Below are positions 44,244-56,772 of a stretch of DNA of 64,000 nt, in pieces. Source of the stretch: an uncultured Alphaproteobacteria bacterium (lineage in GTDB: Bacteria; Pseudomonadota; Alphaproteobacteria; HIMB59); NCBI GenBank assembly GCA_902610175.1, contig CACLUR010000001.1, positions 434,001 to 498,000 on the forward strand. The letters run 5' to 3'. Numbering within the stretch: position 1 is the first letter of the stretch; every line of letters begins with the position of its first letter. A program made the position numbers and the translations under genes. Under the pieces are notes generated by a model. It ran no database searches and was not told where the DNA came from. It worked only from the letters and a program-made list of their open reading frames with translations.

Positions 44244-44870
44244 TTGACTATAAATTTAAAAAAACTTAGTGAAATAAATAATAAAATTAAGGATAAAAAT
44301 ACTAAATTATTGATCGTTACTAAAACAAGACCTCTCGAAGAAATTTTGCAATTAATAAATTTAGGATTTTGTAACTTTGGTGAAAATAGGGTACAAGAGG
44401 CACAACAAAAATTTACAAATATTCCCTCACGTATGGACATTAGTGTGAGTTTAATTGGTCCTCTTCAATCAAACAAAGTAAAACAAGCATTAAAACTATT
44501 TGATGTGATCCAGTCACTAGATCGAATAAAGATTGTTGATGAAATTTTGAAATATAAAAATGAGAACTCTAAAACTAAAAATTTTTATATTCAAATAAAT
44601 ATTGGAAAGGAAGATCAAAAAAGTGGAGTAATGCCTAACGATTTCGAGGATTTTTATAAATACTGTATTGATAAATGTTTAAAAATAAATGGAATAATGT
44701 GTATTCCACCAGAAGGTAAAGATCCAGCTCCTTTTTTTTCTGAAATGAAAATGATTAGAGACAGGATTGATAAAAATTTAATTTTAAGTATGGGAATGAG
44801 CTTAGATTACGAAATTGCACTTGATCATCAATCTAATGAAATACGTGTAGGATCGTTAATATTTTCATGA
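44244..44870 (+). CDS. Pyridoxal phosphate homeostasis protein (YggS/PLPBP)
   Basis: A 208-residue PLP-binding protein that buffers PLP. The PLP lysine is in LLIVTKTRP, followed by FGENRVQEAQQKF, IGPLQSNKVKQAL and the C-terminal SMGMSLDYEIAL and IRVGSLIF. The start is a TTG at 44244, ten bases after the upstream gene. It overlaps the next gene by four bases. Confidence 0.93.
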   Translation: MTINLKKLSEINNKIKDKNTKLLIVTKTRPLEEILQLINLGFCNFGENRVQEAQQKFTNIPSRMDISVSLIGPLQSNKVKQALKLFDVIQSLDRIKIVDEILKYKNENSKTKNFYIQINIGKEDQKSGVMPNDFEDFYKYCIDKCLKINGIMCIPPEGKDPAPFFSEMKMIRDRIDKNLILSMGMSLDYEIALDHQSNEIRVGSLIFS

Positions 44871-45343
44871 AATATTTAATAATATTTATTTTTATAATAT
44901 TAACTAAGAACTTATTTTCTTTAGAAGTTGAGTGCTCATTTGAGGAGGTTTATCAAAATGGAGAAACACAACAAGGTTTTTTTTTGATTAAGGATGAAAA
45001 ATTTAGATATCAATATGATGATAAAAACTTATTTACAATTATTCACAATCAAAACATTTTTTTCTTAATAGAAAATAGTGATCCAACTAGATTTTTTAGA
45101 ATAGATGAAAATACAGAGGTTCTAAAAGCAGTACTAAAAATTTTAGGTGATTACCCTGATTTTAGAGATGAATATTATCTTGAGGGACTTTTAATAAGAA
45201 TAGAACAAAGTAACATAAATATTATAAAAAGGTTAATTTTATTGTCTGACGAAAAAAATTTAAGCATTTATATAAATGACTGTAAGTTTCATCCAATTAA
45301 AAATTTATACTTTTCGTACAGCCCTTATTTCAATTATAAGTAA
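44867..45343 (+). CDS. LolA-like periplasmic protein
   Basis: A 158-residue exported protein (signal peptide MKYLIIFIFIILTKNLFS). The pattern GFFLIKDEKFRYQYDDKNLF resembles the strands of LolA, which carries lipoproteins across the periplasm. In alphaproteobacteria lolA is normally next to ftsK, and ftsK is two genes away here. Similarity is low, so this is a probable rather than firm call. Confidence 0.6.
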   Translation: MKYLIIFIFIILTKNLFSLEVECSFEEVYQNGETQQGFFLIKDEKFRYQYDDKNLFTIIHNQNIFFLIENSDPTRFFRIDENTEVLKAVLKILGDYPDFRDEYYLEGLLIRIEQSNINIIKRLILLSDEKNLSIYINDCKFHPIKNLYFSYSPYFNYK

Positions 45344-45346
45344 AAA

Positions 45347-45877
45347 ATGATTAATTTAAGTTGCAATGATAATTTTCTTAAAAATAGCATTGTCGATCTT
45401 TTGTACCAAAAAAAATTCTTTTTAAACATTTCTCATACTACTCAGTATTTTTTTCAATCAAAAATTATAATTAAAGAAAAAAGCTTAGAGATCTCTACCA
45501 GTACTAATAAATTTAATCTAAATCTACCTTTAAGTTTTAACGAATTCTTTGAAAAATTTTTCGATATGATATCTAATGAAAAAGTTTTCTTACAAAGTTG
45601 TGAGTATTACCCCTTTAAGCAACTAATAAAAAAAAATGAAAAAAATATATTTTTAAGTGAGATTCAAAACACAATTATGTCAAATTTATTACTGAACTCT
45701 AGTGATGGTATTAAAAAGATAGATTTAATTAAAATAATTTGGCCGAATGACAAAGACGTATTCTTTAACAAGCTTGATACACATCTAACAAATTTAAAAA
45801 ATTACTTAAAGTCAGAAAGTGACTTTGATTTAAAGTTCACGTCAAAGTCAGGCCTTATAAAATTAATTTTTAATTAA
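45347..45877 (+). CDS. Protein with OmpR-type winged-helix C-terminus
   Basis: A 176-residue protein. The last 75 residues (LIKIIWPNDKDVFFNKLDTH, then LTNLKNYLKS) follow the OmpR/PhoB winged-helix pattern: Trp in the loop, THLxxLKxxL recognition helix, and a final hairpin. The N-terminal part would correspond to a receiver domain but lacks a visible phospho-acceptor Asp pocket. It may be a phosphorylation-independent regulator. It converges on ftsK with a 15-bp overlap. Confidence 0.55.
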   Translation: MINLSCNDNFLKNSIVDLLYQKKFFLNISHTTQYFFQSKIIIKEKSLEISTSTNKFNLNLPLSFNEFFEKFFDMISNEKVFLQSCEYYPFKQLIKKNEKNIFLSEIQNTIMSNLLLNSSDGIKKIDLIKIIWPNDKDVFFNKLDTHLTNLKNYLKSESDFDLKFTSKSGLIKLIFN

Positions 45878-47917
45878 TATTTCCCTTTTACCTGTGTGAC
45901 TTGGTTCTGATACAACACCACGTTGTTCCAATGCTTCCATGATCCTTGCAGCTTTATTATATCCAATTTGAAAATTTCTTTGTAAATAGCTTGTAGATGC
46001 TTTATTGGAGGATTTTATAAGCTCTATAGACTTAGATATTAGTAATTCATCCTGATCACTAAGTGACTCAAAATTTTCATCGTTATTTTTTATAATTTCT
46101 TCTAATTCATCTAAATAATCTACTTGTCGGTTTCTCTTAATTTCTTTGATTAACTTATTAACTTCGTTGTCAGAAATGAATGCTGACTGATACCTGATTA
46201 TATTTCCCCCATTCTTAGTCATTAACATATCTCCATTGCCTAAAAGTTGTTCTGCCCCAACCTCTCCTAAAACGGTTCTACTATCGTATTTACTTGCTAC
46301 TTGAAAACTTATTCTAGAAGGAAAGTTTGCCTTTATACTTCCAGTGATTATATCAACACTTGGTCGTTGTGTTGCCATAACCAAATGTATACCGCAGGCT
46401 CTGGCCATTTGTGCTAAACGCTGAACATAGTGTTCAACGTCTTTACCAGCTGTCATCATTAAATCAGCCATCTCATCAATAAAAACAACAATGTATGGTA
46501 ACTTTTCATGAGATTTTTCGTTGTATCCCTCTAGACTTCTTGTATTTTCTTCATTCATAAGTGAGTATCTTCTCTCCATTTCTTTACAGACCCACTTCAG
46601 TGTAATAATTGCTTTTTTAGGCTCTGTAACAACTGGTGTAAGTAGATGAGCAATGTCGTTATAGACACTTAGTTCAAGCATTTTTGGGTCAATAAGTATT
46701 AATCTGAGTTCCTCTGGCGAGAACCTGTATAATATGCTTGCAAGTAAAGTATTTATGAATACAGATTTTCCTGACCCAGTTGTACCCGCAACAAGAAGGT
46801 GAGGGGTTTTACTTAAATCAATAACTTCTATATTTCCTGAAATATCTTTACCTATACATAAAGGTATTTTAAATGATGTCTTTTTAAAATTATTATTACT
46901 TAAAAGCTCTTTAATTGTTACTACCTCACGTTTTTCATTAGGCACTTCTACACCAAGGTACTGTGTTCCAAAAATTTGTGCAATTCTTACAGCTCCTACA
47001 CCCATACTTCTAGATATATCATCAGCAAGATTTATGATTGTATTAATTTTAATACCAGGGGCAGGCAATATCTCAAATAGAGTTACAACAGGACCCAACT
47101 TTACATTAATAACTTGTATATCTATGTTGAAGTCTTCAAATACTTTTTCTAATAATGTAGAATTTGTTTTTATATTCTCCTCTTCAACTTCAGTTTTGGA
47201 AAAGGAATTATCAGTTTCCAAAATTTCAAGCGATGGAGAATAGTAAGTTTGTGAGGTATTTTCTTTACTATCAAAATTATCAACATCGTAATTATCTGTT
47301 AGGTTATTGTTTATTATAGGCTCTTTTTTTATTCGAGATCTTGCGATTTCATTTTCATCCTTGCCTCTGAAAACCTTGACTAAATTAAACTTAGGAAATT
47401 TAAGCAAAAAAAGATTCTGAGATAATAAAAAAATTATAACTCCAAATATAGATAGTAAATAATGTATATAATTTAAACTATAAATTTCATAAATGTAATT
47501 TGCAAAGATGCCCCAAGGTTCGATTGTATCAATAAATTTAATATTAAATTCCAAATACAACAATGCTTGTGGAATTAATGTTAAGCTCAAAAAAAATGTT
47601 AAAAGTCTTATAAAAATATATCTGGGTGGTTTATTAATAAAAACTAATATCGAAAAAGACAAAAAAAATAAAATTATCAGATATCCAAATATACCAAAAG
47701 TATAAAATATAAAGCTTGCATAATAAGATCCAAAATCTCCTAATAAATTACCCGATACATTACTAGTTCTTGTTAAAAATGAATTATCATTTATGCTAAA
47801 TGTTAATAAAGATGCTGCTGATATAATAGATATTATCATTAAGGAAGTTGCATATGAGTACTTATATAATGATAAAAGTTTCTCTTTTAAAATATCAGGA
47901 ATATAGTTAATTTTCAT
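45863..47917 (-). CDS. ftsK: DNA translocase FtsK
   Basis: Cell-division DNA pump of 684 residues, compact for the family. Four or five N-terminal transmembrane helices (to about residue 175) anchor it at the septum, followed by a short linker. The motor has VAGTTGSGKSVFINTLLAS and VVFIDEMADLMM. The C-terminal gamma winged helix (YLQRNFQIGYNKAARIMEAL) reads KOPS sites and activates XerD. Confidence 0.97.
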   Translation of the reverse strand: MKINYIPDILKEKLLSLYKYSYATSLMIISIISAASLLTFSINDNSFLTRTSNVSGNLLGDFGSYYASFIFYTFGIFGYLIILFFLSFSILVFINKPPRYIFIRLLTFFLSLTLIPQALLYLEFNIKFIDTIEPWGIFANYIYEIYSLNYIHYLLSIFGVIIFLLSQNLFLLKFPKFNLVKVFRGKDENEIARSRIKKEPIINNNLTDNYDVDNFDSKENTSQTYYSPSLEILETDNSFSKTEVEEENIKTNSTLLEKVFEDFNIDIQVINVKLGPVVTLFEILPAPGIKINTIINLADDISRSMGVGAVRIAQIFGTQYLGVEVPNEKREVVTIKELLSNNNFKKTSFKIPLCIGKDISGNIEVIDLSKTPHLLVAGTTGSGKSVFINTLLASILYRFSPEELRLILIDPKMLELSVYNDIAHLLTPVVTEPKKAIITLKWVCKEMERRYSLMNEENTRSLEGYNEKSHEKLPYIVVFIDEMADLMMTAGKDVEHYVQRLAQMARACGIHLVMATQRPSVDIITGSIKANFPSRISFQVASKYDSRTVLGEVGAEQLLGNGDMLMTKNGGNIIRYQSAFISDNEVNKLIKEIKRNRQVDYLDELEEIIKNNDENFESLSDQDELLISKSIELIKSSNKASTSYLQRNFQIGYNKAARIMEALEQRGVVSEPSHTGKREILIKN

Positions 47918-47943
47918 TATTTTAAATAAATATATGCGTCTAA

Positions 47944-49065
47944 ATGAAAAATAAAATATTTAAATACGATTTTTTAATAGTTGGTGCAGGCCTAATTGGT
48001 TCACTTACAGCTTTAGCATTAAAAAAAAAGAAATTAAAAGTTTTGGTAATTGATGGCAAAAATTCTATACCAAAAGATCAGCGGACCTTGGCTGTAAATG
48101 CAAATTCTAAAGAATTTTTGGAAATGTTAGGTATTTGGAGACATCTTAAAACTAAACCACAGCAAATAAATAAAATCATTATTAAAGACTATATAAACTC
48201 TTCCCCACTTATTTTTAGCAATGATACAGAAGCAATGGGAAGTGTAATACACAATACTGAGCTTATTAAAATTGCTCGCCAAAAATTAAGTAATTTGCAA
48301 ATTTTGAAATCAAATATTCAAATTGATTTAGACAGCTTATCACCCAAAAAAATTACTAGAATTCATAATAAATTTTATTCTTTTAAAAAAATTGTAATAA
48401 GTATAGGAAAGAAAATTATATTTGCTCAAAAAAATAAAAGCTTAACTTTTGATAATGGTGACTTTTCATATGTAGGTTTTTTTAAACACCAAAATGATCA
48501 TAATAATCTTGCATATGAATTTTTTAATCAGGATGGACCATTAGCAGTTCTTCCATCTCCGCATTTAAACAATAAAAAATCTACATTTATTTTTTCCTCA
48601 AATAAACGAACCACATATCCTAAAATAAAATCTCTAATTAAAAGAAATTTTTATTCATCTCATGGAAAAATTCTATTTGATAAGCAATTACATAAATTTC
48701 CAGTTACTCCACATATAACAAAATACCATAAAAATTTTATATATGTGGGGGATAGTCTTAAATCTATTCATCCGGTAGCAGGGCAAGGCTGGAACTTAGG
48801 GATAAAGGATATCCAATCTTTAATGAACTTGATAGATAAATACCCTTTAGAAAGTGAAGCCTTCCAATCAATCTACTATTCAAGGAGGTTGATTGAAAGT
48901 TCTCTGTATTTTGGTTTTACATCTTTGATTAATTTTTTATATGAAAACCCAACGACCTTAAATAATAATTTCGTTAGATTTGGCTATAGCGGTTTACTAA
49001 ACTTTAAGCTTCTAAGAAATATCTTTATTAAACAAGCAATGGGAAGACTCAGTTTAATTGATTAG
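47944..49065 (+). CDS. UbiH/UbiF/COQ6-type FAD monooxygenase
   Basis: A flavin hydroxylase of ubiquinone biosynthesis, 373 residues. The FAD Rossmann motif is FLIVGAGLIGSLTALAL, the middle motif is DQRTLAVNANS, and the second FAD motif is VGDSLKSIHPVAGQGWNLG. Which ring position it hydroxylates is not predictable. Divergent from ftsK with 26 bp between starts; convergent with the LON-domain gene (17-bp overlap). Confidence 0.92.
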   Translation: MKNKIFKYDFLIVGAGLIGSLTALALKKKKLKVLVIDGKNSIPKDQRTLAVNANSKEFLEMLGIWRHLKTKPQQINKIIIKDYINSSPLIFSNDTEAMGSVIHNTELIKIARQKLSNLQILKSNIQIDLDSLSPKKITRIHNKFYSFKKIVISIGKKIIFAQKNKSLTFDNGDFSYVGFFKHQNDHNNLAYEFFNQDGPLAVLPSPHLNNKKSTFIFSSNKRTTYPKIKSLIKRNFYSSHGKILFDKQLHKFPVTPHITKYHKNFIYVGDSLKSIHPVAGQGWNLGIKDIQSLMNLIDKYPLESEAFQSIYYSRRLIESSLYFGFTSLINFLYENPTTLNNNFVRFGYSGLLNFKLLRNIFIKQAMGRLSLID

Positions 49066-49708
49066 GTGTTTTGCTACTTACTACTTGGAAAGTATTTAAA
49101 TCAAGAATAGAATTAATAGTATTAATTCTAGACAAGACATTTGGCGACTCTAAAATTGCTTGTTTATCTATCTTGTTGAATGGAGCTAACATAGCAAGTG
49201 TTGAAAGAAGCTGTAAATTTGATGTCTCAGATAGAACGTCTTTATCTATATCTAACTTTTTCATTCTAAAGAAATTTGTATATTTTTGAATTAGACTTGT
49301 ACGATCTAAGTTAGGCTCGATATTGTTAAGATCCTCAAAATAATCATTACAATCAATTGTGGCCTGATAATAGCCATGAGTATTAAGATTTCTATCGTGA
49401 AGAACAAATCGGCAAATTCCCTCTAGATTTAGAACAAGTCTATAATCCGGAGTCTCAATATAAGATGTAATTTTACCGATACATCCCATTTGAAAAAGCT
49501 CATTATTATTATTTTTAGGCTGAATAATTCCAATCATTCGGTGAGTCTTTAAACTATCTAAAGTCATCTTTATGTATCTCTCTTCGAAAATGTTTAATGG
49601 TAATTTTCCAAATGGGAGTAACAAAACGTTATCAAGAGGAAAAATAGGGATAGAACTTGGTATATCCATAGGCTTGATATCAAAAAGTTTTTTTATATTA
49701 TCGTCCAT
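49049..49708 (-). CDS. LON substrate-binding domain protein
   Basis: A 219-residue stand-alone Lon N-terminal domain (PUA-like) with IPIFPLDNVLLLPFGKLPLN and a later GCIGKI. No ATPase or protease domain is present. In alphaproteobacteria this gene typically follows a thioredoxin/CnoX gene, as it does here, sharing one base with it. Confidence 0.9.
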   Translation of the reverse strand: MDDNIKKLFDIKPMDIPSSIPIFPLDNVLLLPFGKLPLNIFEERYIKMTLDSLKTHRMIGIIQPKNNNNELFQMGCIGKITSYIETPDYRLVLNLEGICRFVLHDRNLNTHGYYQATIDCNDYFEDLNNIEPNLDRTSLIQKYTNFFRMKKLDIDKDVLSETSNLQLLSTLAMLAPFNKIDKQAILESPNVLSRINTINSILDLNTFQVVSSKTPNQLN

Positions 49709-50577
49709 TATTTAAACATTATACTAGATAATTTTTTTCGTGCTTCAATAACATTTGGATCATTAAAACCCAATAAATCAAAAAATTCTAAAAGTTTTTT
49801 TTTAGCAGCTCCATCTTTCCATTTAGGATCATGTTCAAAAATTTTAAGAAGTTCATCAAATCCTTTTTTAGTTTCACTTGTTGATAGATAGGTTTCAGCT
49901 AGTTCATATCTTAGATCTTTATCTTGAGGATTTGCTTTAATTTTTTCCAATATTTTTTCATATGATAAATCTGAATTTTCTTTATTCGAGCCATCTAAAA
50001 GCATTTTTATTTTTGATATTTCCTCATTTTTTAAAATGTTATCATCAAGTGACTCAAACATTTCTTGCGCATCTTGAAAACGCTTGAGCTGTAATAAACA
50101 TCTCAATAAACCTGTAATAATTTTTGCATTACCTGAATCAACGGCTATAAGTTTCTCATAAATTTTTAAAGACTCATCAAACTTTTTTTCTTTAAAAAAT
50201 TGATCTGCTTCATTTATTTGTCCTGGAATTTCATTACCTGGTGTTGCATCGATCAACTTTCTAACCATAATTTCAATTTTACTCTCTGGTTGAGCGCCTT
50301 GAAAGGCATCTATGGGTTTTCCATCTACAAAACCATAAACTGTCGGTATAGATTGAATATTTAATTGCGCAGCAATTCCCTGATTTTCATCAACATTGAT
50401 TTTGGCTAGTATTATTTTACCGTTTTTTTGATTAACTACTTTTTCTAAAGTAGGGGTTAGCTGCTTACATGGACCGCACCATGGTGCCCAGAAATCTACT
50501 ATTACAGGGATGGTTTTAGACTTCTCTACTACTTCACTTAAAAATTGATCTTCATTAATATCAACAACATTACTCAT
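49708..50577 (-). CDS. Thioredoxin-TPR co-chaperone (CnoX/YbbN type)
   Basis: A 289-residue protein with an N-terminal thioredoxin domain (residues 1-110) whose active site WAPWCGPCKQL keeps both cysteines, and a C-terminal helical TPR-like domain. E. coli CnoX lacks one cysteine and holds unfolded proteins under oxidative stress; this one could still be redox-active. The next gene on the same strand is the LON-domain protein. Confidence 0.9.
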   Translation of the reverse strand: MSNVVDINEDQFLSEVVEKSKTIPVIVDFWAPWCGPCKQLTPTLEKVVNQKNGKIILAKINVDENQGIAAQLNIQSIPTVYGFVDGKPIDAFQGAQPESKIEIMVRKLIDATPGNEIPGQINEADQFFKEKKFDESLKIYEKLIAVDSGNAKIITGLLRCLLQLKRFQDAQEMFESLDDNILKNEEISKIKMLLDGSNKENSDLSYEKILEKIKANPQDKDLRYELAETYLSTSETKKGFDELLKIFEHDPKWKDGAAKKKLLEFFDLLGFNDPNVIEARKKLSSIMFK

Positions 50578-50634
50578 ATTTTAGAAATGGTATCAAATGA
50601 ATTTTTTACAACAATAATAATTTTTCCTTTTGCC

Positions 50635-50663: not shown

Positions 50664-50687
50664 ATATTACGTTAAATAATTTACATT

Positions 50688-50762
50688 GCGGGCGTAGCTC
50701 AGGGGTAGAGCGCAACCTTGCCAAGGTTGAAGTCGAGGGTTCGAATCCCTTCGCCCGCTCCA
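50688..50762 (+). tRNA. tRNA-Gly (anticodon GCC)
   Basis: A complete cloverleaf: acceptor arms GCGGGCG/CGCCCGC, D-stem GCTC/GAGC, and anticodon stem CAACC/GGTTG with loop TTGCCAA (anticodon GCC at 50720-50722). The T-arm is GAGGG/TTCGAAT/CCCTT, followed by discriminator T and encoded CCA. It serves as the attachment site of the following genomic island, whose copy of the 3' part keeps the gene intact. Confidence 0.98.
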
Positions 50763-50764
50763 AT
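50718..50764 (+). repeat. attL: 47-bp repeat inside tRNA-Gly
   Basis: The left copy of the direct repeat begins at the first base of the anticodon loop and runs through CCA plus two bases. It is identical over 47 bp to 55192-55238. A repeat starting at the anticodon loop is typical of tyrosine-integrase attachment sites in tRNA genes. Confidence 0.92.
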
Positions 50765-50795
50765 AATCAATACTTTTTTGTTTCTTTTACAACTT

Positions 50796-50817
50796 GGTGT
50801 TAAACGTGGTGTTAAAC
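50796..50817 (+). repeat. Left pair of GGTGTTAAAC arm-type repeats
   Basis: Two direct copies of GGTGTTAAAC at 50796-50805 and 50808-50817, separated by two bases. The same 10-mer recurs three times near the other end. The spacing and placement resemble arm-type sites bound by the N-terminal domain of tyrosine integrases. Confidence 0.7.
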
Positions 50818-50874
50818 AAATCAAACTAGGTATTAATAACAATAGGGCTAAGAGGGTTTTCATTTAAGTTATTC

Positions 50875-51033
50875 TCAATCTTGATTTCCCTTAATGATTT
50901 GAGAAATAATTTTGCCACTTTCCTCTTTTTTTAGAGGCCTGATATTTCTTCCAAAAATTATTCCTGTTTTATACTTTAGTTTGACTAAATCCTCAGGCTT
51001 TCTAGCAACTGTAGATTTAATTACTTTAACCAT
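50875..51033 (-). CDS. Island microprotein, 52 residues
   Basis: Start chosen at the ATG at 51033 because AAAGGAG lies just upstream; the frame stays open for ten further codons that only read the ribosome-binding site. The product is basic (MVKVIKSTVARKPEDLVKL...) with no recognised domain. It overlaps the preceding gene by 8 bp, forming a two-gene unit. Confidence 0.55.
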   Translation of the reverse strand: MVKVIKSTVARKPEDLVKLKYKTGIIFGRNIRPLKKEESGKIISQIIKGNQD

Positions 51034-51181
51034 TTTTACTCTCCTTTGGTTTATTGGTGGCATTTAAAAACTTTTTAAGTTTTTGATTAGGTAATGGTTT
51101 TTGATGAAATTGTATATAAGAGCGATGAATAGGTATTCCTAGTTCTCTTATTTCTTTTAGCGTTAATTTTTTCATTGGCAT
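51026..51181 (-). CDS. Island microprotein, 51 residues
   Basis: Start chosen at the ATG at 51181, preceded by the strong Shine-Dalgarno AAAGGAGG. The product is basic (MPMKKLTLKEIRELGIPIH...) and unrecognised. Translationally linked to the 52-residue protein that follows. The ribosome-binding sites of this pair are stronger than those of many chromosomal genes around. Confidence 0.55.
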   Translation of the reverse strand: MPMKKLTLKEIRELGIPIHRSYIQFHQKPLPNQKLKKFLNATNKPKESKNG

Positions 51182-51304
51182 TGTTAACCTCCTTTGGTTT
51201 AAACAAGGCAACTAAAAAATGGAAAAATTTTATCCGTTTTAGCTGCATTTATTAAGCACCCGCAATATTGATTAGTAAATCGGTGCTACAATCTTTATAA
51301 ATGA

Positions 51305-51403
51305 TTATACAGATGGTGTAAATAATGAATTTCTAATTGTTTGCCTTATGTATATTGTTGTTCCAATAAAAATAATAAAATGAACGGGCCACCAATAAGG
51401 CAT
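51305..51403 (-). CDS. Possible 32-residue single-span microprotein
   Basis: A short frame opening MPYWWPVHFIIFIGTTIYI, with one hydrophobic span. In-frame codons upstream (EEWWYWFVN) extend the aromatic-rich character, but no canonical start is found there. It lies downstream of the ASCH-like gene on the same strand. Support is compositional only. Apart from this the 51182-51468 stretch holds nothing I can identify. Confidence 0.25.
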   Translation of the reverse strand: MPYWWPVHFIIFIGTTIYIRQTIRNSLFTPSV

Positions 51404-51468
51404 ATTTACAAACCAATACCACCATTCTTCAAATATTTTACCAAATCTGTTTTCAAAATTATCAAAAT

Positions 51469-51726
51469 TTACAAATTTTCTTTCTTAATAATTTTCCCTA
51501 AGTTAATGACATAGTCTCCCTTATTAACTTCAATTTCCTTATCATTTATCTTAATAATTTTTCTTTTATGATTAATTGAATATCCCTCATACTTACAAAT
51601 AAAAAAAGGCTTATCAGAACCATACCCATTGACGAATTTAATAAAGTCATAATGTTTGTTTGATAATCTTGACTCTATCCACTTAGATGGAGCCCTGTAT
51701 TCTTTTTTCTTGACTCCTTGTATCAT
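51469..51726 (-). CDS. Small ASCH-like protein
   Basis: An 85-residue protein. The opening KKKEYRAPSKWIESRL and the central FVNGYGSDKPFF resemble short phage-borne ASCH-domain proteins (a PUA-like RNA- or nucleotide-binding fold). The resemblance is by eye. It follows the methyltransferase gene on the same strand, 59 bp away. Confidence 0.5.
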   Translation of the reverse strand: MIQGVKKKEYRAPSKWIESRLSNKHYDFIKFVNGYGSDKPFFICKYEGYSINHKRKIIKINDKEIEVNKGDYVINLGKIIKKENL

Positions 51727-51767
51727 TAATTCAAACCAAATTTTTTTTAATGTGAGATGTAATACTC

Positions 51768-51793
51768 TATTCTGAGATATACTTATCAGAATA
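51768..51793 (-). terminator. Hairpin at the end of the methyltransferase gene
   Basis: TATTCTGA (51768-51775) and TCAGAATA (51786-51793) form an 8-bp perfect stem with a ten-base loop overlapping the methyltransferase stop. A run of eight T on the minus strand occurs about 20 bases later, so it may be a weak terminator or an RNA-processing hairpin between two island genes. Confidence 0.35.
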
Positions 51794-52532
51794 GCCCCCC
51801 AGAATTTTTTAATCTTTTTGTAGCAAAATCATGATAATCCTTATCAATCTCACTGCCTAAATAATTTCTTTTCATTAATTTTGCAACGTATGCAGTTGTA
51901 CCGGTGCCTATAAATGGGTCATAAACTAAGTCACCCTCATCAGAGAAATTCTTTAAAATATGATGAACTAATTCTTGTGGAAATACTGCACCGTGTTCTT
52001 TGTTCTTCTTTTTTTCTCTACCTATTTGCCAAATATCTTCCAACGTTCCTCTATTAAAATTAGCTTTTCTAAACCTCCTGCTAATTCCATCTTCTCTATC
52101 AAAAACTAAGATTAATTCAGTTCTTCGATTTAAAACTTTGTCTCTAATTGCTGGTTCTGCAACTTTTTTATCCCATATATAAATATCTTTTAACTCTTTA
52201 TAAAACTCACCCATTATCCTAAAAAAAGCTCTTTTACTTCCCGTCACTATTTGAATGTTGTAAAAAATTATCTTACTGGTTCTTAATAGTTCATTAATTA
52301 CTGATTTATGAAATTCAAAATATTCATCTATTGGTAAGTTATCTGCAAAGTTTTGATATTTTGTTGTAAGTTCTTTGACGATTTGACGAGAGCAATATTG
52401 GCCATTTCGAATTCTTAAATTCATATTGTATGGAGGTGAGGTGATAACAATATCTATAAAATCGTCAGGTGTTTTTTTTAAAGTTTCTAAACAAGACTCT
52501 TTATAAATTTTATTAATTTTAATTTTGGACAT
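51786..52532 (-). CDS. DNA (cytosine-N4) methyltransferase of a type II system
   Basis: A 248-residue beta-class methyltransferase: catalytic motif IV (ITSPPYNMNL) comes first, at about residue 31, and the SAM-binding motif I (DPFIGTGTTAYVA) is near the C-terminus. SPPY is typical of N4-cytosine enzymes, and N4-cytosine methylation is what protects MvaI/BcnI-type sites. It is divergent from the restriction gene, with about 44 bp between starts. Confidence 0.9.
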   Translation of the reverse strand: MSKIKINKIYKESCLETLKKTPDDFIDIVITSPPYNMNLRIRNGQYCSRQIVKELTTKYQNFADNLPIDEYFEFHKSVINELLRTSKIIFYNIQIVTGSKRAFFRIMGEFYKELKDIYIWDKKVAEPAIRDKVLNRRTELILVFDREDGISRRFRKANFNRGTLEDIWQIGREKKKNKEHGAVFPQELVHHILKNFSDEGDLVYDPFIGTGTTAYVAKLMKRNYLGSEIDKDYHDFATKRLKNSGGLF

Positions 52533-52576
52533 TGTCTGTAACTTTCCAATATAAGAAAAAAGGTGTAGTCTACAAG

Positions 52577-53344
52577 ATGATTATGCCTAATACAGATGCA
52601 GATAAATTTATTGAATCCTTCAAAAAAGTTAAGGAAATGGGTGAGATTAAATCAAATCGAAGTGGCAATACTGGTGTGGGTAAAACATTAGAAGACATTA
52701 TGAATGTTGAAGAGAACAACCTTCAAATACCAGATTTGTTTAATTTTGAAATAAAATCACAAAGAAATCTTAGTGAGTCTTATGTTACTCTTTTCACAAA
52801 ATCTCCAAAGCCTCCACGTATCAATAATACATTAAGATTAAAATATGGAAGCAACGATGAAGTTTTTAATGACATTAAAGTATTGCACACCTCAGTATTC
52901 CACAGTCGTTGGAATACACATATGGCCGGATATGGATATAGAACATATGTAGATTACGAAAATGAAAAACTTTTTCTAAAATTAAAAAATTTAGAAACTG
53001 ATGTAGAAGAAGATTTTACAATTTACTGGGACTTCGAAGATTTAAACTTCAAGTTAAACAACAAACTTCAAAACTTAGCATTTGTTAAAGCAGATGTAAG
53101 TAGAAGGGAAGAGGGAGAGTATTTTTACTTTAAGGAGTGTATTCTTTACACAGGAGGACTCACATTAAATAGATTTTTAAAAGCCATCGAAGATGATTAT
53201 ATTATGTTTGATGTAAGAATAGGTGCCTATAAAAATCCCAACAATAGAGCTACTTATGGAAAAATACACGACCACGGCAGCGGTTTTAGAATCAAAAAAC
53301 AAAACTTCTTAAATTTATATGATAGAGAGTTAAGGATTACTTAA
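52577..53344 (+). CDS. MvaI/BcnI-type restriction endonuclease
   Basis: A PD-(D/E)XK-fold type II endonuclease of about 255 residues. The family opening GNTGVGKTLEDIM is followed by IPDLFNFEIKSQ with the catalytic D, E and K, then FTKSPKPPRINNTLRLKYG and the C-terminal IHDHGSGFRI. MvaI cuts CCWGG and BcnI CCSGG; the target here is inferred to be similar, not shown. I use the ATG at 52577, which matches family N-termini; a TTG at 52532 is possible. TTGGAC-N19-TATAAG upstream is a plausible promoter. Confidence 0.9.
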   Translation: MIMPNTDADKFIESFKKVKEMGEIKSNRSGNTGVGKTLEDIMNVEENNLQIPDLFNFEIKSQRNLSESYVTLFTKSPKPPRINNTLRLKYGSNDEVFNDIKVLHTSVFHSRWNTHMAGYGYRTYVDYENEKLFLKLKNLETDVEEDFTIYWDFEDLNFKLNNKLQNLAFVKADVSRREEGEYFYFKECILYTGGLTLNRFLKAIEDDYIMFDVRIGAYKNPNNRATYGKIHDHGSGFRIKKQNFLNLYDRELRIT

Positions 53345-53583
53345 TCCTCATACTTAATTTCTATCTGATTTTGAATTTTATATAATTGCGGCAATACTTT
53401 TTCTTCATCAACTATACCCATTCTTTGAATAATATTGATAATGTCACCAATTTGTAATGGATAAGGCAATCGAGCAACGAATGTTCCTTGTTGCTCATAT
53501 TCTTTGATATGTCCTGATTTTTTTCTAAATTTCCTTATTTCTTTGTCTTTTTTTGCTTGCAAAAAATCAATAGGTATTTTCAT
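53341..53583 (-). CDS. Unknown island protein, 80 residues
   Basis: Starts at an ATG preceded by the strong ribosome-binding site AAAGGAGT. Basic N-terminus (MKIPIDFLQAKKDKEIRKF) and an acidic C-terminus; no domain recognised. It converges on the restriction gene with a 4-bp overlap and is divergent from the nuclease gene, so it is not placed as a classical controller protein. Confidence 0.6.
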   Translation of the reverse strand: MKIPIDFLQAKKDKEIRKFRKKSGHIKEYEQQGTFVARLPYPLQIGDIINIIQRMGIVDEEKVLPQLYKIQNQIEIKYED

Positions 53584-53728
53584 GTTACTCCTTTCAATAA
53601 AAACGATGATATTAGAGAACTTTATTCGTTCTGAAATTTATTATTAGAAAACTACTTTTACCAAAATCAAATAACGTAGTCAATATTATGTAAGAATTAA
53701 TCAATTATGCTAATATAAGAAAATACTG

Positions 53729-54547
53729 ATGATAAGCCTCAAAAGAAATAAGAAAACTGGTGAGCTTGTAATGGCAAAAGGAACCAGAGTAATGAAAAAA
53801 TATATCTATCAACCAAACCAAAAGGATGATTTTAAAGTTAGCAGGTCTAAATTTGAGGATTTTTTAAAATGTGAAAAATGTTTTTACTTAGATAGAGTTG
53901 GAGGGCTTGAGAGACCAGATATTCCTTCATTTACACTTAATGAAACCACTGACATTCTCTATAAAAAAGAATTTGATTTATGCAGAGAAAAACGAATACC
54001 TCACAGACTTTTAGTCGAAAACGAATTATCACATATCATTCCCTATCAACATGAAGATATAGACAAGTGGAGAGACTCTCTACATTACGGATTAATGGTA
54101 AGATATAAAGATACAAACATTATTCTATCTGGTGGAGTAGATGATGTTTGGATTAATACGAATAACAATAAACTTGTTGTTTTAGATTACAAATCTCAAG
54201 CAAAAAAAATTGAAAAATTAAATCATAAAGACTATTTAGACGATGTTTATCATCAAAGTTATAAAACACAGTTAGAATTTTATGCCTACTTGCTAATCAA
54301 AATGGGACATGAGGTTGATGAAACTGGATATTTTGTTGTTTGTAATGCTGATAGAGACAAAGAGAATTTTGAAAAAAATATGAAATTTGATGAACTATTA
54401 GTACCATATAAACTTAATTTGATTTGGATTGAGCAAAAGATAGATGAGATGATTGATGTACTAAATGAAAAAAAATTATTCAAAAGTAATGAAAGTTGCA
54501 TGAATTGTGCTTACCAAAGGGAAAGAGAGTTATTAGGTTATAAGTGA
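53729..54547 (+). CDS. Fe-S cluster PD-(D/E)XK nuclease (Cas4/RecB-like)
   Basis: A 272-residue nuclease. SRSKFEDFLKCEKCFYLD at about residue 37 supplies two cysteines and CMNCAYQRE at the C-terminus supplies two more, the spacing of an AddB/Cas4-type iron-sulfur cluster. The catalytic core is GGVDDVW, VVLDYKS and YKTQLEFYAYLL. The family is common in marine bacteria, with no established role. It overlaps the next gene by 4 bp (GTGA). A downstream ATG (residue 15) is an alternative start. Confidence 0.85.
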   Translation: MISLKRNKKTGELVMAKGTRVMKKYIYQPNQKDDFKVSRSKFEDFLKCEKCFYLDRVGGLERPDIPSFTLNETTDILYKKEFDLCREKRIPHRLLVENELSHIIPYQHEDIDKWRDSLHYGLMVRYKDTNIILSGGVDDVWINTNNNKLVVLDYKSQAKKIEKLNHKDYLDDVYHQSYKTQLEFYAYLLIKMGHEVDETGYFVVCNADRDKENFEKNMKFDELLVPYKLNLIWIEQKIDEMIDVLNEKKLFKSNESCMNCAYQRERELLGYK

Positions 54548-54963
54548 AGATTATTAATTTAAATAATGTTGAACAACATCATTCTAAAATAGAACAAATA
54601 ATCAAATATGGAAAATACGATAAATTTTGGATTGATTTTGCTAACAATCGAAAGACTACAAAAGAAGATTATCGAAATTTTGTATATAAAGTATATCCCC
54701 AAGCACTAAGCATGTTCAATGATTACCAAGGTGTAAAAAAAAACCTAATTTATTTTCATACTTATTGGCAATTACCTTTTTACTTGATTGGAAAAGATAT
54801 TACTCCGAGAGATAATATCATGTTCATATTCAATGAGTCAGTCCTGAACATATACAACAAAATACAAGATAAAAAAATATATACTGAAATCGCAGATGTC
54901 ATTTACTTCACTTTCTTTACCCCTAAAAGAATTAGTGAATTCAAAAAATTAAAAGTTGTTTAG
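54544..54963 (+). CDS. Unknown island protein coupled to the nuclease
   Basis: A 139-residue protein starting with GTG in the 4-bp overlap with the nuclease stop, indicating translational coupling. Many aromatic residues (LIYFHTYWQLPFYLIGKD) and no signal peptide. No family recognised. It is the last gene of the island; 54964-55191 is AT-rich non-coding DNA containing the repeats described separately. Confidence 0.65.
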   Translation: MKIINLNNVEQHHSKIEQIIKYGKYDKFWIDFANNRKTTKEDYRNFVYKVYPQALSMFNDYQGVKKNLIYFHTYWQLPFYLIGKDITPRDNIMFIFNESVLNIYNKIQDKKIYTEIADVIYFTFFTPKRISEFKKLKVV

Positions 54964-55071
54964 AAATTTTTATTAATAAATTTTTTCAATGGTATATCTA
55001 ATTTTAAATTTTATTTAAATGTATTTGTTTATTTTCCTCTATCAATTTAGTTGCCTATAAAAGCCATAATA

Positions 55072-55129
55072 GTTTAACACCAAAGTTATAAATCTACTGT
55101 AATAGGTGTTAAACAAAATGTTTAACACC
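55072..55129. repeat. Right group of three GGTGTTAAAC repeats
   Basis: GTTTAACACC at 55072-55081, GGTGTTAAAC at 55105-55114 and GTTTAACACC at 55120-55129; the outer two are inverted relative to the middle one. The extended consensus TTGGTGTTAAAC is shared with the left pair. The group ends 62 bp before the right 47-bp repeat. Confidence 0.7.
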
Positions 55130-55191
55130 AACTTTTCTAAAACCTCAACAAATTCAATGTTAAAGTAGTAGAAGAGGTAACGACTTTATCA

Positions 55192-55238
55192 TTGCCAAGG
55201 TTGAAGTCGAGGGTTCGAATCCCTTCGCCCGCTCCAAT
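55192..55238 (+). repeat. attR: partial tRNA-Gly copy
   Basis: A 47-bp perfect duplicate of 50718-50764 covering the anticodon loop to CCA of tRNA-Gly. It has no 5' half and is not a functional tRNA. It is the ancestral tRNA 3' end displaced by integration, marking the right edge of the island. Confidence 0.93.
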
Positions 55239-55250
55239 TCAATAAATATT

Positions 55251-56153
55251 TTAATCAACAAATTTTAAACCAGGGTTGACATTGATATCTACATCTTCAA
55301 TAGCATTTCCCCTTCTTACTTCATCATAATATACAATTTGTGTAGGAGTCTCTCCTTTGAATATTGTGTAAGCACTAATGAATGACTGATATATACCGTG
55401 TTTAAAGTAAATTGACTCTGGCTCAAAAAATATTGGTGATTTAAAAATTTCAACAACTTTATTACCATCAACCCAAGCATCTATCTTCTTATTTTCAAAA
55501 TCTAAGCATACAGAAATATCTGTCCAAACACCTTTCATATCTCTTAATAATTTTAACTTATGGTATTCCGACTCATCAATAACATTATCTTTAGAGCCAC
55601 TAAGTTTATGCCAATTTAAATACAAACCTCCTTGTCTAGCATCAATTTGTATCAATGGTGGAAACGAGGATAGTCTATTTGCTTTCCCGGATGGACCACC
55701 GTGCTGATGTATCTGCCCTAATGTTGTACTAACTTTTCTAATATCAGTAAATTCATTAGACAATTTTAGACTATAGCCGTAACATTGTTTTCCAGATGTA
55801 GGTTGATTTGGCCTAGAAGAAAGCTCAATCCTTTGTCTATCATTATCGCAATCATTCCAACTTTCATCACCGAAACAATCACCATTTCTAAGTTCAAATT
55901 TTTGATAATATTCCCCAGACCTTGCTTGTGAAGTATCTTTTATGTAATTAAAGTTATGTTTATTCTGGCTCATAAAATTTTTATGAAACTTAAAACCACT
56001 ATTAAATGTTTCAATAAATAATTTATCATTTTCATCAATTGAAAAATTATTAGCTAAAGAGATAGATTTGAATATCAAGAAAATAAATAGAATTTTTGAA
56101 ATTAAGTTTAATTGCAATCTAATTAATTTAATAAATTTATTTTTACAAACCAT
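55251..56153 (-). CDS. Exported polysaccharide lyase (heparin lyase I family)
   Basis: A 300-residue secreted protein (hydrophobic signal at about residues 17-35) with a jelly-roll domain. NDRQRIELSSRPNQP, LGQIHQHGGPSG and VCLDFENKKIDAWVDGN match the heparin-lyase I/PL20-like family, which cleaves uronate polysaccharides. It lies just outside the island's right boundary. The substrate is unknown. Confidence 0.75.
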   Translation of the reverse strand: MVCKNKFIKLIRLQLNLISKILFIFLIFKSISLANNFSIDENDKLFIETFNSGFKFHKNFMSQNKHNFNYIKDTSQARSGEYYQKFELRNGDCFGDESWNDCDNDRQRIELSSRPNQPTSGKQCYGYSLKLSNEFTDIRKVSTTLGQIHQHGGPSGKANRLSSFPPLIQIDARQGGLYLNWHKLSGSKDNVIDESEYHKLKLLRDMKGVWTDISVCLDFENKKIDAWVDGNKVVEIFKSPIFFEPESIYFKHGIYQSFISAYTIFKGETPTQIVYYDEVRRGNAIEDVDINVNPGLKFVD

Positions 56154-56157
56154 ATAT

Positions 56158-56772
56158 TTAAATTAACAACTCTACTAATAATAAAGCACCAATAATTATA
56201 AAAACACTACCTACAAATTTTTTCAATATAACGTTTTTATTTTTAAAAAATTCTAAAGCAATATTAGATGTAACCAATAGTGTTAAGATTACATACCAAA
56301 TTGTATCAACAATACCGGCTGTAAGAATTAAGGTTAAATTAAAAGCTTTACCATTTTCTAGCGACATAAATTGTGAATAAATAGCAACAAACCATATAAA
56401 TATTTTAGGATTTAATAATGAAATACTAACCCCTTGTAAAAATGAGGTAAAACCCCCACTTAAATCTTTTTTATCAAAATCTAATTTATCCCTATCAATC
56501 ATTGATTTTATACCTAAATATATGAGGAAAATTATTGATAAAGATTTGATTACGTTAAACACAAGTAAGTTTGTTTTAATTATTAAAGCTACCCCAAGAA
56601 CTGCAAAAAGTGCGTACATACCTATTCCAATCCCGTGGCCTAAGGATGTTAAAATACCATGAAATCTACCTTTAAAAATTGCATTATTAATCACTACTAC
56701 CATACTCGGTCCTGGTGACATTGCGCCAAGTAGGCAAACCGCAAATATCTTAAAAAAAACTATTAAAGACAT
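56158..56772 (-). CDS. LysE/RhtB family exporter
   Basis: A 204-residue inner-membrane protein with about six helices. The family motif AMSPGPSMVVVINNAIFKGR is at the N-terminus, with LLNPKIFIWFVAIYSQF in the middle. Members export amino acids such as lysine, threonine or homoserine; the substrate here is not predictable. It lies 4 bp upstream of the lyase gene on the same strand. Confidence 0.9.
   Translation of the reverse strand: MSLIVFFKIFAVCLLGAMSPGPSMVVVINNAIFKGRFHGILTSLGHGIGIGMYALFAVLGVALIIKTNLLVFNVIKSLSIIFLIYLGIKSMIDRDKLDFDKKDLSGGFTSFLQGVSISLLNPKIFIWFVAIYSQFMSLENGKAFNLTLILTAGIVDTIWYVILTLLVTSNIALEFFKNKNVILKKFVGSVFIIIGALLLVELLI

Follow-up and report, generated by a model that had tools for sequence, protein, structure and literature searches.

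The 64,000-nucleotide stretch analysed here (the window; all coordinates are positions in it, and its genome is called G000) carries a small island at its tRNA-Gly(GCC) gene, which is probably a non-autonomous integrative element mobilised by an integrase encoded elsewhere. An earlier reading of the DNA alone (the sequence-only reading) had proposed either a satellite-like island moved by a recombinase in trans or a decayed element that had lost its integrase. We favor the first branch, a foreign recombinase, over plain decay because a 99.4% identical copy of the island lies in diverged surroundings in a second genome, G017, and because arm-type ends enclose unrelated cargo in relatives. Movement by a recombinase that the island does not itself encode is thus favored, whereas the recombinase as such and a link to phages were not found by our scans.

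The target gene, which is the sole tRNA gene detected in the window, and the two repeats are located as follows.

50688..50762, + strand: tRNA-Gly(GCC), which serves as integration target and is restored on the left side (ARAGORN)
50718..50764, + strand: left 47-bp repeat (attachment core), 100% identical to 55192-55238
55192..55238, + strand: right 47-bp repeat (attachment core), 100% identical to 50718-50764

The direct repeat has a spacing of 4474 nt and encloses 4.4 kb. It starts in the anticodon loop and consists of the final 45 nt of tRNA-Gly(GCC) plus two more, so that the perfect duplication of the 3' part of the gene described in the sequence-only reading was confirmed. In tRNA-class islands the far end likewise bears a duplicate of the tRNA 3' part, and the target gene is restored; an exact 47-bp repeat kept at the tRNA corresponds to the attL/attR direct repeats of cis-mobilizable elements (CIMEs).

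In addition, the window contains five exact copies of the 10-bp sequence GGTGTTAAAC, all within about 120 nt of the two repeats, which the sequence-only reading had not mentioned. Shuffling of the window gave a mean of 0.07 copies (sd 0.29, largest value 2).

50796..50805, + strand: left arm-type site 1, GGTGTTAAAC, exact match, position kept in relatives
50808..50817, + strand: left arm-type site 2, GGTGTTAAAC, exact match
55072..55081, - strand: right arm-type site 1, GGTGTTAAAC, exact match
55105..55114, + strand: right arm-type site 2, GGTGTTAAAC, exact match
55120..55129, - strand: right arm-type site 3, inverted to right site 2 with 5 nt between

On the left, two direct copies start 33 and 45 nt past the core (taken as 45 nt in the script); on the right, copies start 120, 87 and 72 nt ahead of it, the last two forming the inverted pair with its 5-nt gap. 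An attP of the lambda type has arm sites on both sides of one core. In a circular form of the island the five sites would likewise flank a single core on both sides. We therefore regard the GGTGTTAAAC copies as putative arm-type sites of an integrase; such sites are a feature of tyrosine-integrase islands, and the copies here have a conserved layout, with binding predicted.

The layout was traced through 162 genomes of the order. With up to two mismatches allowed, the inverted pair occurred in seven of the 52 genomes of the genus, each time at tRNA-Gly repeats, and in none of the 110 other genomes; the reversed control gave no match. The family comprises eight intervals, namely those of G000 and G017 (4.5 kb), G066 (2.3 kb), G009 (1.8 kb), G019 (1.1 kb) and G021 (1.0 kb) and two in G006 (1.0 and 1.1 kb). 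Both ends are kept in four of them (G000, G017 with one site fewer, G009 and G066), left sites only in the first G006 interval, and right sites only in the second one, G019 and G021. Relatives preserve the distances between sites and core around different cargo: restriction-modification and nuclease genes in G000 and G017, an FkbM-like protein (by eye) in the first G006 interval, a polysaccharide lyase in the second and in G019 (by likeness to a lyase in the window), and proteins of unknown kind in G009, G066 and G021. Integrase seeds in phmmer matched in none of the eight intervals. Scanning 84,980 genomes for exact copies of the inverted pair with 3-8 nt between its halves returned nine stretches. 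The four with a 5-nt gap are marine single-amplified genomes (SAGs) of the HIMB59 lineage, and the other five (gap of 4, 7 or 8 nt) belong to other organisms and are without the core.

The copy in G017 (SAG AG-891-G06) matched window 50687-55237 with 99.43% identity over 4551 bp, the differences being 14 mismatches and one 12-bp gap, which removes one of the two left arm-type sites. The match runs exactly from the tRNA to the distal repeat. To the left, 4.8 kb of G017 are unmatched, followed by 72% identity over window 44376-50614; to the right, the match resumes at 56291 with 86% over 7.7 kb, and the first right-hand genes (LysE, HAD, purH) are 71-75% identical. Elsewhere the two genomes share 91-92% over 12 kb of the window, so that the background is a range, 72-86% nearer the tRNA and 91-92% elsewhere. 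Descent from a common ancestor is disfavored because the element would then be clearly more diverged. All eight changes in the methyltransferase (1), the endonuclease (4), an 80-aa open reading frame (ORF) (1) and the nuclease (2) are synonymous; the 61-aa and 85-aa ORFs have two changes, both of them non-synonymous. These comparisons indicate that the element spread between species recently and, by the synonymous-only changes, that the main cargo genes are under selection.

AG-891-G06 is listed among the SAGs of genomospecies HIMB59-1.B (PMC10734472; this and the other papers are cited from the portions of their text accessible to us). Hence the genus, in which G000 is also placed, belongs to the order HIMB59 (AEGEAN-169). 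The relatives G009, G021 and G066 are AG-337-P20, AG-892-N06 and AG-894-O04, respectively. The roughly 4.8 kb of extra genes between the thioredoxin gene and the tRNA in G017 (G017:C2 301772-306604; L304, L305) are absent from the window; the upstream side of tRNA-Gly is thus also variable.

The sharp limits of the G017 match bear on RecA-dependent homologous recombination through the tRNA and the repeat, which would need no integrase. The 76-bp tRNA and the 47-bp repeats are identical between carriers, and exchange of islands by homologous recombination is described for the order in the accessible text of PMC10734472. However, the match ends at tRNA and repeat, and the sequence beyond either has no counterpart or shares only 72-86% identity, which leaves only 47-76 bp of identity for the exchange. 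Moreover, arm sites at fixed distances around different cargo would remain unexplained. We consider this route very improbable.

Comparison of the tRNA-Gly loci of relatives, proposed in the sequence-only reading with shared content and the want of any empty site as the outcome that would speak against an island, revealed both empty and differently occupied sites. In G036 the site is empty: the lyase gene lies no more than 15 nt past the tRNA, and the genes on either side share 87-93% identity with the window. The corresponding position in G035 (87-95%) is occupied by a 6.1-kb element that encodes a 314-aa integrase. In G026, G028 and G029 a LysE-type gene is found 12-74 nt from the tRNA, a junction that is an older empty state. 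A full-length, 100% identical copy of the tRNA-Gly is carried by 34 of the 52 genus genomes. In ten of these 34, the contig also bears another copy, either full or 3'-partial; seven of the ten are the GGTGTTAAAC-site family. In G029 it is a 38-nt 5' part of the tRNA-Gly that is duplicated, beside the thioredoxin gene and 4.2 kb from the full copy (L094; G029:C1:317224-317299 and 321471-321508), with a polarity opposite to that of the other elements.

Next to these features stands the lack of an integrase. Neither Pfam nor PHROGs assigned any of the interval's eight ORFs to an integrase family, nor did NCBIfam for the seven that were scanned, and phmmer with 15 integrase seeds gave no match among ORFs of at least 40 aa in the locus at E 1e-3. 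The sequence-only reading saw neither an integrase nor a remnant in any frame that it inspected and named a full integrase gene, found inside by a profile search, as a refutation; the four kinds of scan gave no integrase inside the element. What may be the vestige of an integrase start lies next to the right-hand sites in the window; it was too short to count, and neither G009 nor G066 has it. The island therefore does not have the integrase of its own that marks tRNA-class tyrosine-integrase islands; no integration or conjugation gene was found by Pfam and PHROGs in its eight ORFs or by the integrase seeds in phmmer, as is characteristic of CIMEs. In the G000 assembly (16 contigs, 94.6% complete) the single PF00589 match is a 329-aa frame on another contig. 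Its best NCBIfam model is XerC with 254 bits, below the cut-off of 335. Xer was set aside as the recombinase, the only candidate of the assembly being XerC-like and the site layout, as we take it, not resembling dif.

The mechanism we propose is as follows. Upon circularisation, the 47-bp core with two direct 10-bp sites on one side and three, including the inverted pair, on the other would form a complete attP. A tyrosine integrase from another element would bind the 10-bp sites and recombine the core with tRNA-Gly, and in this way the restriction-modification and nuclease cargo could leave and enter chromosomes. Binding of the sites by an integrase, its action in trans (or in cis from a former neighbor), circularisation and the route between cells are the parts that we infer.

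An unlikely alternative is a decayed CIME which lost its integrase and either moves only by excision of an adjoining integrase-bearing element across shared repeats or is immobile. CIMEs are defined in this way in the available part of PMC5704250. The tRNA-Gly is a hotspot, of which 31 intervals bounded by tRNA-Gly copies, from 24 loci, were examined; they are not a random sample because they were picked for extra repeats, arm sites or an integrase. A full-length integrase is present in six (one each in G035, G037, G041, G046, G059 and G060), remnants are present in two (G010 and G055), and 23 are without a match. A full integrase is thus missing from 25 of the intervals, and still the two ends of an element match each other. 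Near both ends, many carry their own short direct sites, spaced by about 11 nt, including TTGTGACAG, AAGTAGCC, GTCCCAC, GGGGGACA, GCAGTAGT, CTCCGAC and others. A 9-mer common to the left and right ends was found in 19 of 24 non-redundant intervals, compared to a mean of 6.4 and a maximum of 16 in 20,000 re-pairings. This set omits seven intervals as alike or thought to be alike (G017_0, G049_1, G056_0, G010_0, G060_0, G006_1 and G058_0, the likeness of G058_0 being unproven). With all 31 included, a 9-mer was shared in 26 as against 32.4% of 930 cross pairs, and an 8-mer in 30 as against 63%.

Sister units differ in their integrase. G035 and G060 combine TTGTGACAG ends with an integrase, and G010 has the same ends with only about the first 17 integrase codons. 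Similarly, G041 has TGTCGATA ends and an integrase, and G054 and one G050 interval have like starting sites and only the first integrase codons (translated by eye). These pairs show how integrase-free units can arise, and the kept ends of G010 beside those of G035 and G060 count for the favored reading. With respect to an origin from an integrative and conjugative or an integrative and mobilizable element, such integrase loss is seen in the sister family, and a parent with the sites of the window was not found in the scans. In favor of the decayed CIME are the tandem units that exist at tRNA-Gly, among them an integrase-bearing unit adjoining an integrase-free one in G060, the remnants in G010 and G055, and the one-sided ends in four of the eight family intervals. 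On the other hand, G000 and G017 hold the element alone today, with no integrase-bearing neighbor at the tRNA for movement in cis, and yet it spread recently. Furthermore, the neighboring integrase units seen here have different arm sites.

Two other kinds of small unit were observed at tRNA-Gly. In G060 a 1.18-kb single-gene unit (L153 6240-7442) has CTCCGAC sites at both ends, and its gene matched the PADLOC candidate defence family PDC-S11 with E 8.7e-113. In G045, G049 and G056 (L135, L138, L140) there are units of 559-580 bp with AAGTAGCC sites.

We then return to the favored reading, an integrase supplied from elsewhere, and to the search for its source. Integrases like that of G060 are present in 28 of the 162 order genomes at E 1e-15. 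The tRNA-Gly core was nearby in 11 of the 30 order integrase loci kept; the exact GGTGTTAAAC site was seen in none of the 30, and isolated one-mismatch matches in nine. Among viral contigs, an exact scan for the inverted pair with 5 nt between gave no match, and direct pairs (40 loci) and everted pairs (6 loci) were never accompanied by more than 12 nt of the core. The single match of the core scan, on a GC-rich contig, was rejected; up to 600 nt from the core there was no site resembling an arm site. Viral relatives of the integrase were distant: 75 loci had about 24-34% identity at full length and at most 47% in short segments, and a further 80 among the matches listed had 22-32%. None of these 155 loci contained the core, and four had an isolated exact GGTGTTAAAC site. 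Phage records searched with the tRNA DNA and with the integrase and endonuclease proteins held nothing close. The 570 integrase matches there were all below 60% identity (best among the matches listed 36%), and the endonuclease matched one record at 28%.

These searches also bear on a strict phage satellite, for which a helper phage would provide both integrase and particles. Small size, the tRNA site and defence cargo would suit a satellite. Yet for the eight ORFs PHROGs gave no family connected with packaging, capsid or replication, and core plus sites were on none of the viral contigs or phage records searched. Likewise, the combination of an integrase with phage-interfering or packaging genes that typifies satellites of the phage-inducible chromosomal island type was not found, no such PHROG being present in the eight ORFs. 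A satellite is therefore improbable.

Several points weigh against the trans-mobilised element that we favor. The 162 order genomes, the 84,980 genomes and the viral contigs scanned for exact matches, and the 155 viral integrase loci all failed to yield an integrase accompanied by these sites and the core. Four of the eight family intervals keep only one end and look worn. Finally, with the assembly 94.6% complete, the helper may sit in the missing part.

The cargo and the neighboring gene are listed below.

50817..50862, - strand: start of a signal-peptide gene (MKTLLALLLLIPSL...), truncated at the left end
50875..51063, - strand: 62-aa ORF, no family (Pfam)
51026..51211, - strand: 61-aa ORF, no significant family (Pfam)
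51469..51726, - strand: 85-aa ORF, PHROG 625 (unknown function), E 1.8e-9 (PHROGs)
51786..52532, - strand: DNA methyltransferase, N6_N4_Mtase, type II (PF01555 1-220/221, E 3.2e-35; PADLOC MTase_II)
52532..53344, + strand: restriction endonuclease of the MvaI/BcnI family (PF15515 1-227/227, E 6.1e-51; PADLOC REase_II)
53341..53583, - strand: 80-aa ORF, no family (Pfam)
53729..54547, + strand: PD-(D/E)XK nuclease, weakly Cas4-like (PF12705, E 1.5e-10; PADLOC Cas4, 1.5e-5)
54544..54963, + strand: 139-aa ORF, no family (Pfam), overlapping the end of the nuclease gene
55251..56153, - strand: polysaccharide lyase gene, neighbor of the element (PF14099)

The adjacent methyltransferase and endonuclease with full-length domains constitute a type II restriction-modification system whose activity is predicted. 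The region 50891-51307 with two of the small ORFs recurs at 81-91% identity in several other locations in the genus; copies at G004:C1:107473-107851 (L156) and G064:C4:18791-19156 (L158) have integrase genes close to tRNA-Arg at a distance of a few kb. The signal-peptide start MKTLLALLLLIPSLSWG is nearly identical at the DNA level across many cargo genes with unrelated-looking mature parts. It occurs at 16 distinct sites in the scanned loci, with dozens of short matches. Locations are window 50817-50862 (-), L132 9274 and 10027 (-, script orientation +), L093 5699, L150, L153 and L155-L158. The shared start looks as if it were a portable leader. A dispersed repeat of about 50 bp at the left end, considered as an attachment feature, was rejected, as it is this coding signal-peptide start. 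In G019 and G006 the lyase gene precedes a repeat bearing the same right-hand sites as the window element. Because of this we read the lyase beside the window element as probably having been carried by an older member of the family whose far end was lost.

Integrase-less units flanked by attachment repeats have clear precedents in the CIMEs and in the ssrA islands of Dehalococcoides, as described in the accessible sections of PMC5704250 and PMC3146451. CIMEs keep the attachment repeats without integration or transfer genes and accrete in tandem at one site (PMC5704250). By comparison with that account, the HIMB59 family keeps complete arm-type sites around unrelated cargo, its units are very small, and one copy spread between species recently without a possible carrier neighbor. 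In Dehalococcoides, 15 of the islands have no integration module; these are arrayed in tandem behind a single RNA gene, and cis-mobilization was suggested for them. The Dehalococcoides islands depend on a serine recombinase and a 20-bp repeat (PMC3146451), in contrast to tyrosine integrases, a tRNA-Gly repeat of 46-53 bp and arm-type sites in HIMB59. For numerous small units following a single tRNA, the precedent is fGI-2 of Ca. Methylopumilus, a streamlined plankton lineage; its islands are additive, measure 330 bp to 42 kb and are marked by tRNA-end repeats. It differs in its tRNA-Lys and 20-bp repeats, and the accessible part of that report mentions no arm sites and gives no integrase content (PMC10872708). 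Tycheposons, known to us through the same source, are also tRNA-associated cargo islands of ocean bacteria, but have a tyrosine recombinase and 4-200 kb (PMC10872708); no recombinase was found on the HIMB59 element. Miniature inverted-repeat transposable elements (MITEs) and clusters of attC sites lacking integron-integrases (CALINs) are similarly non-autonomous: they are recognised by their ends, and the enzyme that moves them comes from elsewhere, though their recombination systems and targets are different, to judge from the available text (PMC11389934). A literature search, with most subscription papers outside its scope, found no integrase-free tRNA units defined by conserved arm sites and no description of the HIMB59 tRNA-Gly locus. 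We place the island as a variant with the CIME or non-autonomous kind; beyond the attachment footprint it has complete ends, a recent spread between species and cargo under selection.

Islands with attachment repeats and no integrase are usually filed as decayed, but the present one spread between species recently with its ends and main cargo genes intact. Its putative arm-type sites are a sequence code for finding the helper integrase, which makes the movement of integrase-free islands directly testable. The finding hints that streamlined ocean bacteria have a class of very small mobile units which island finders based on genes would overlook, and it shows restriction-modification and other defence genes being carried as minimal cargo. 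Tentatively, the tRNA-Gly of the HIMB59 order might even be an open cassette dock: units of about 0.56-5 kb, often with one gene, would consist of an attachment core, cargo and a private arm-site code, be inserted in tandem and be served by integrases of other elements reading that code. Such MITE-like counterparts of tyrosine-integrase islands could then be a main route of gene turnover in this very abundant, streamlined ocean lineage.

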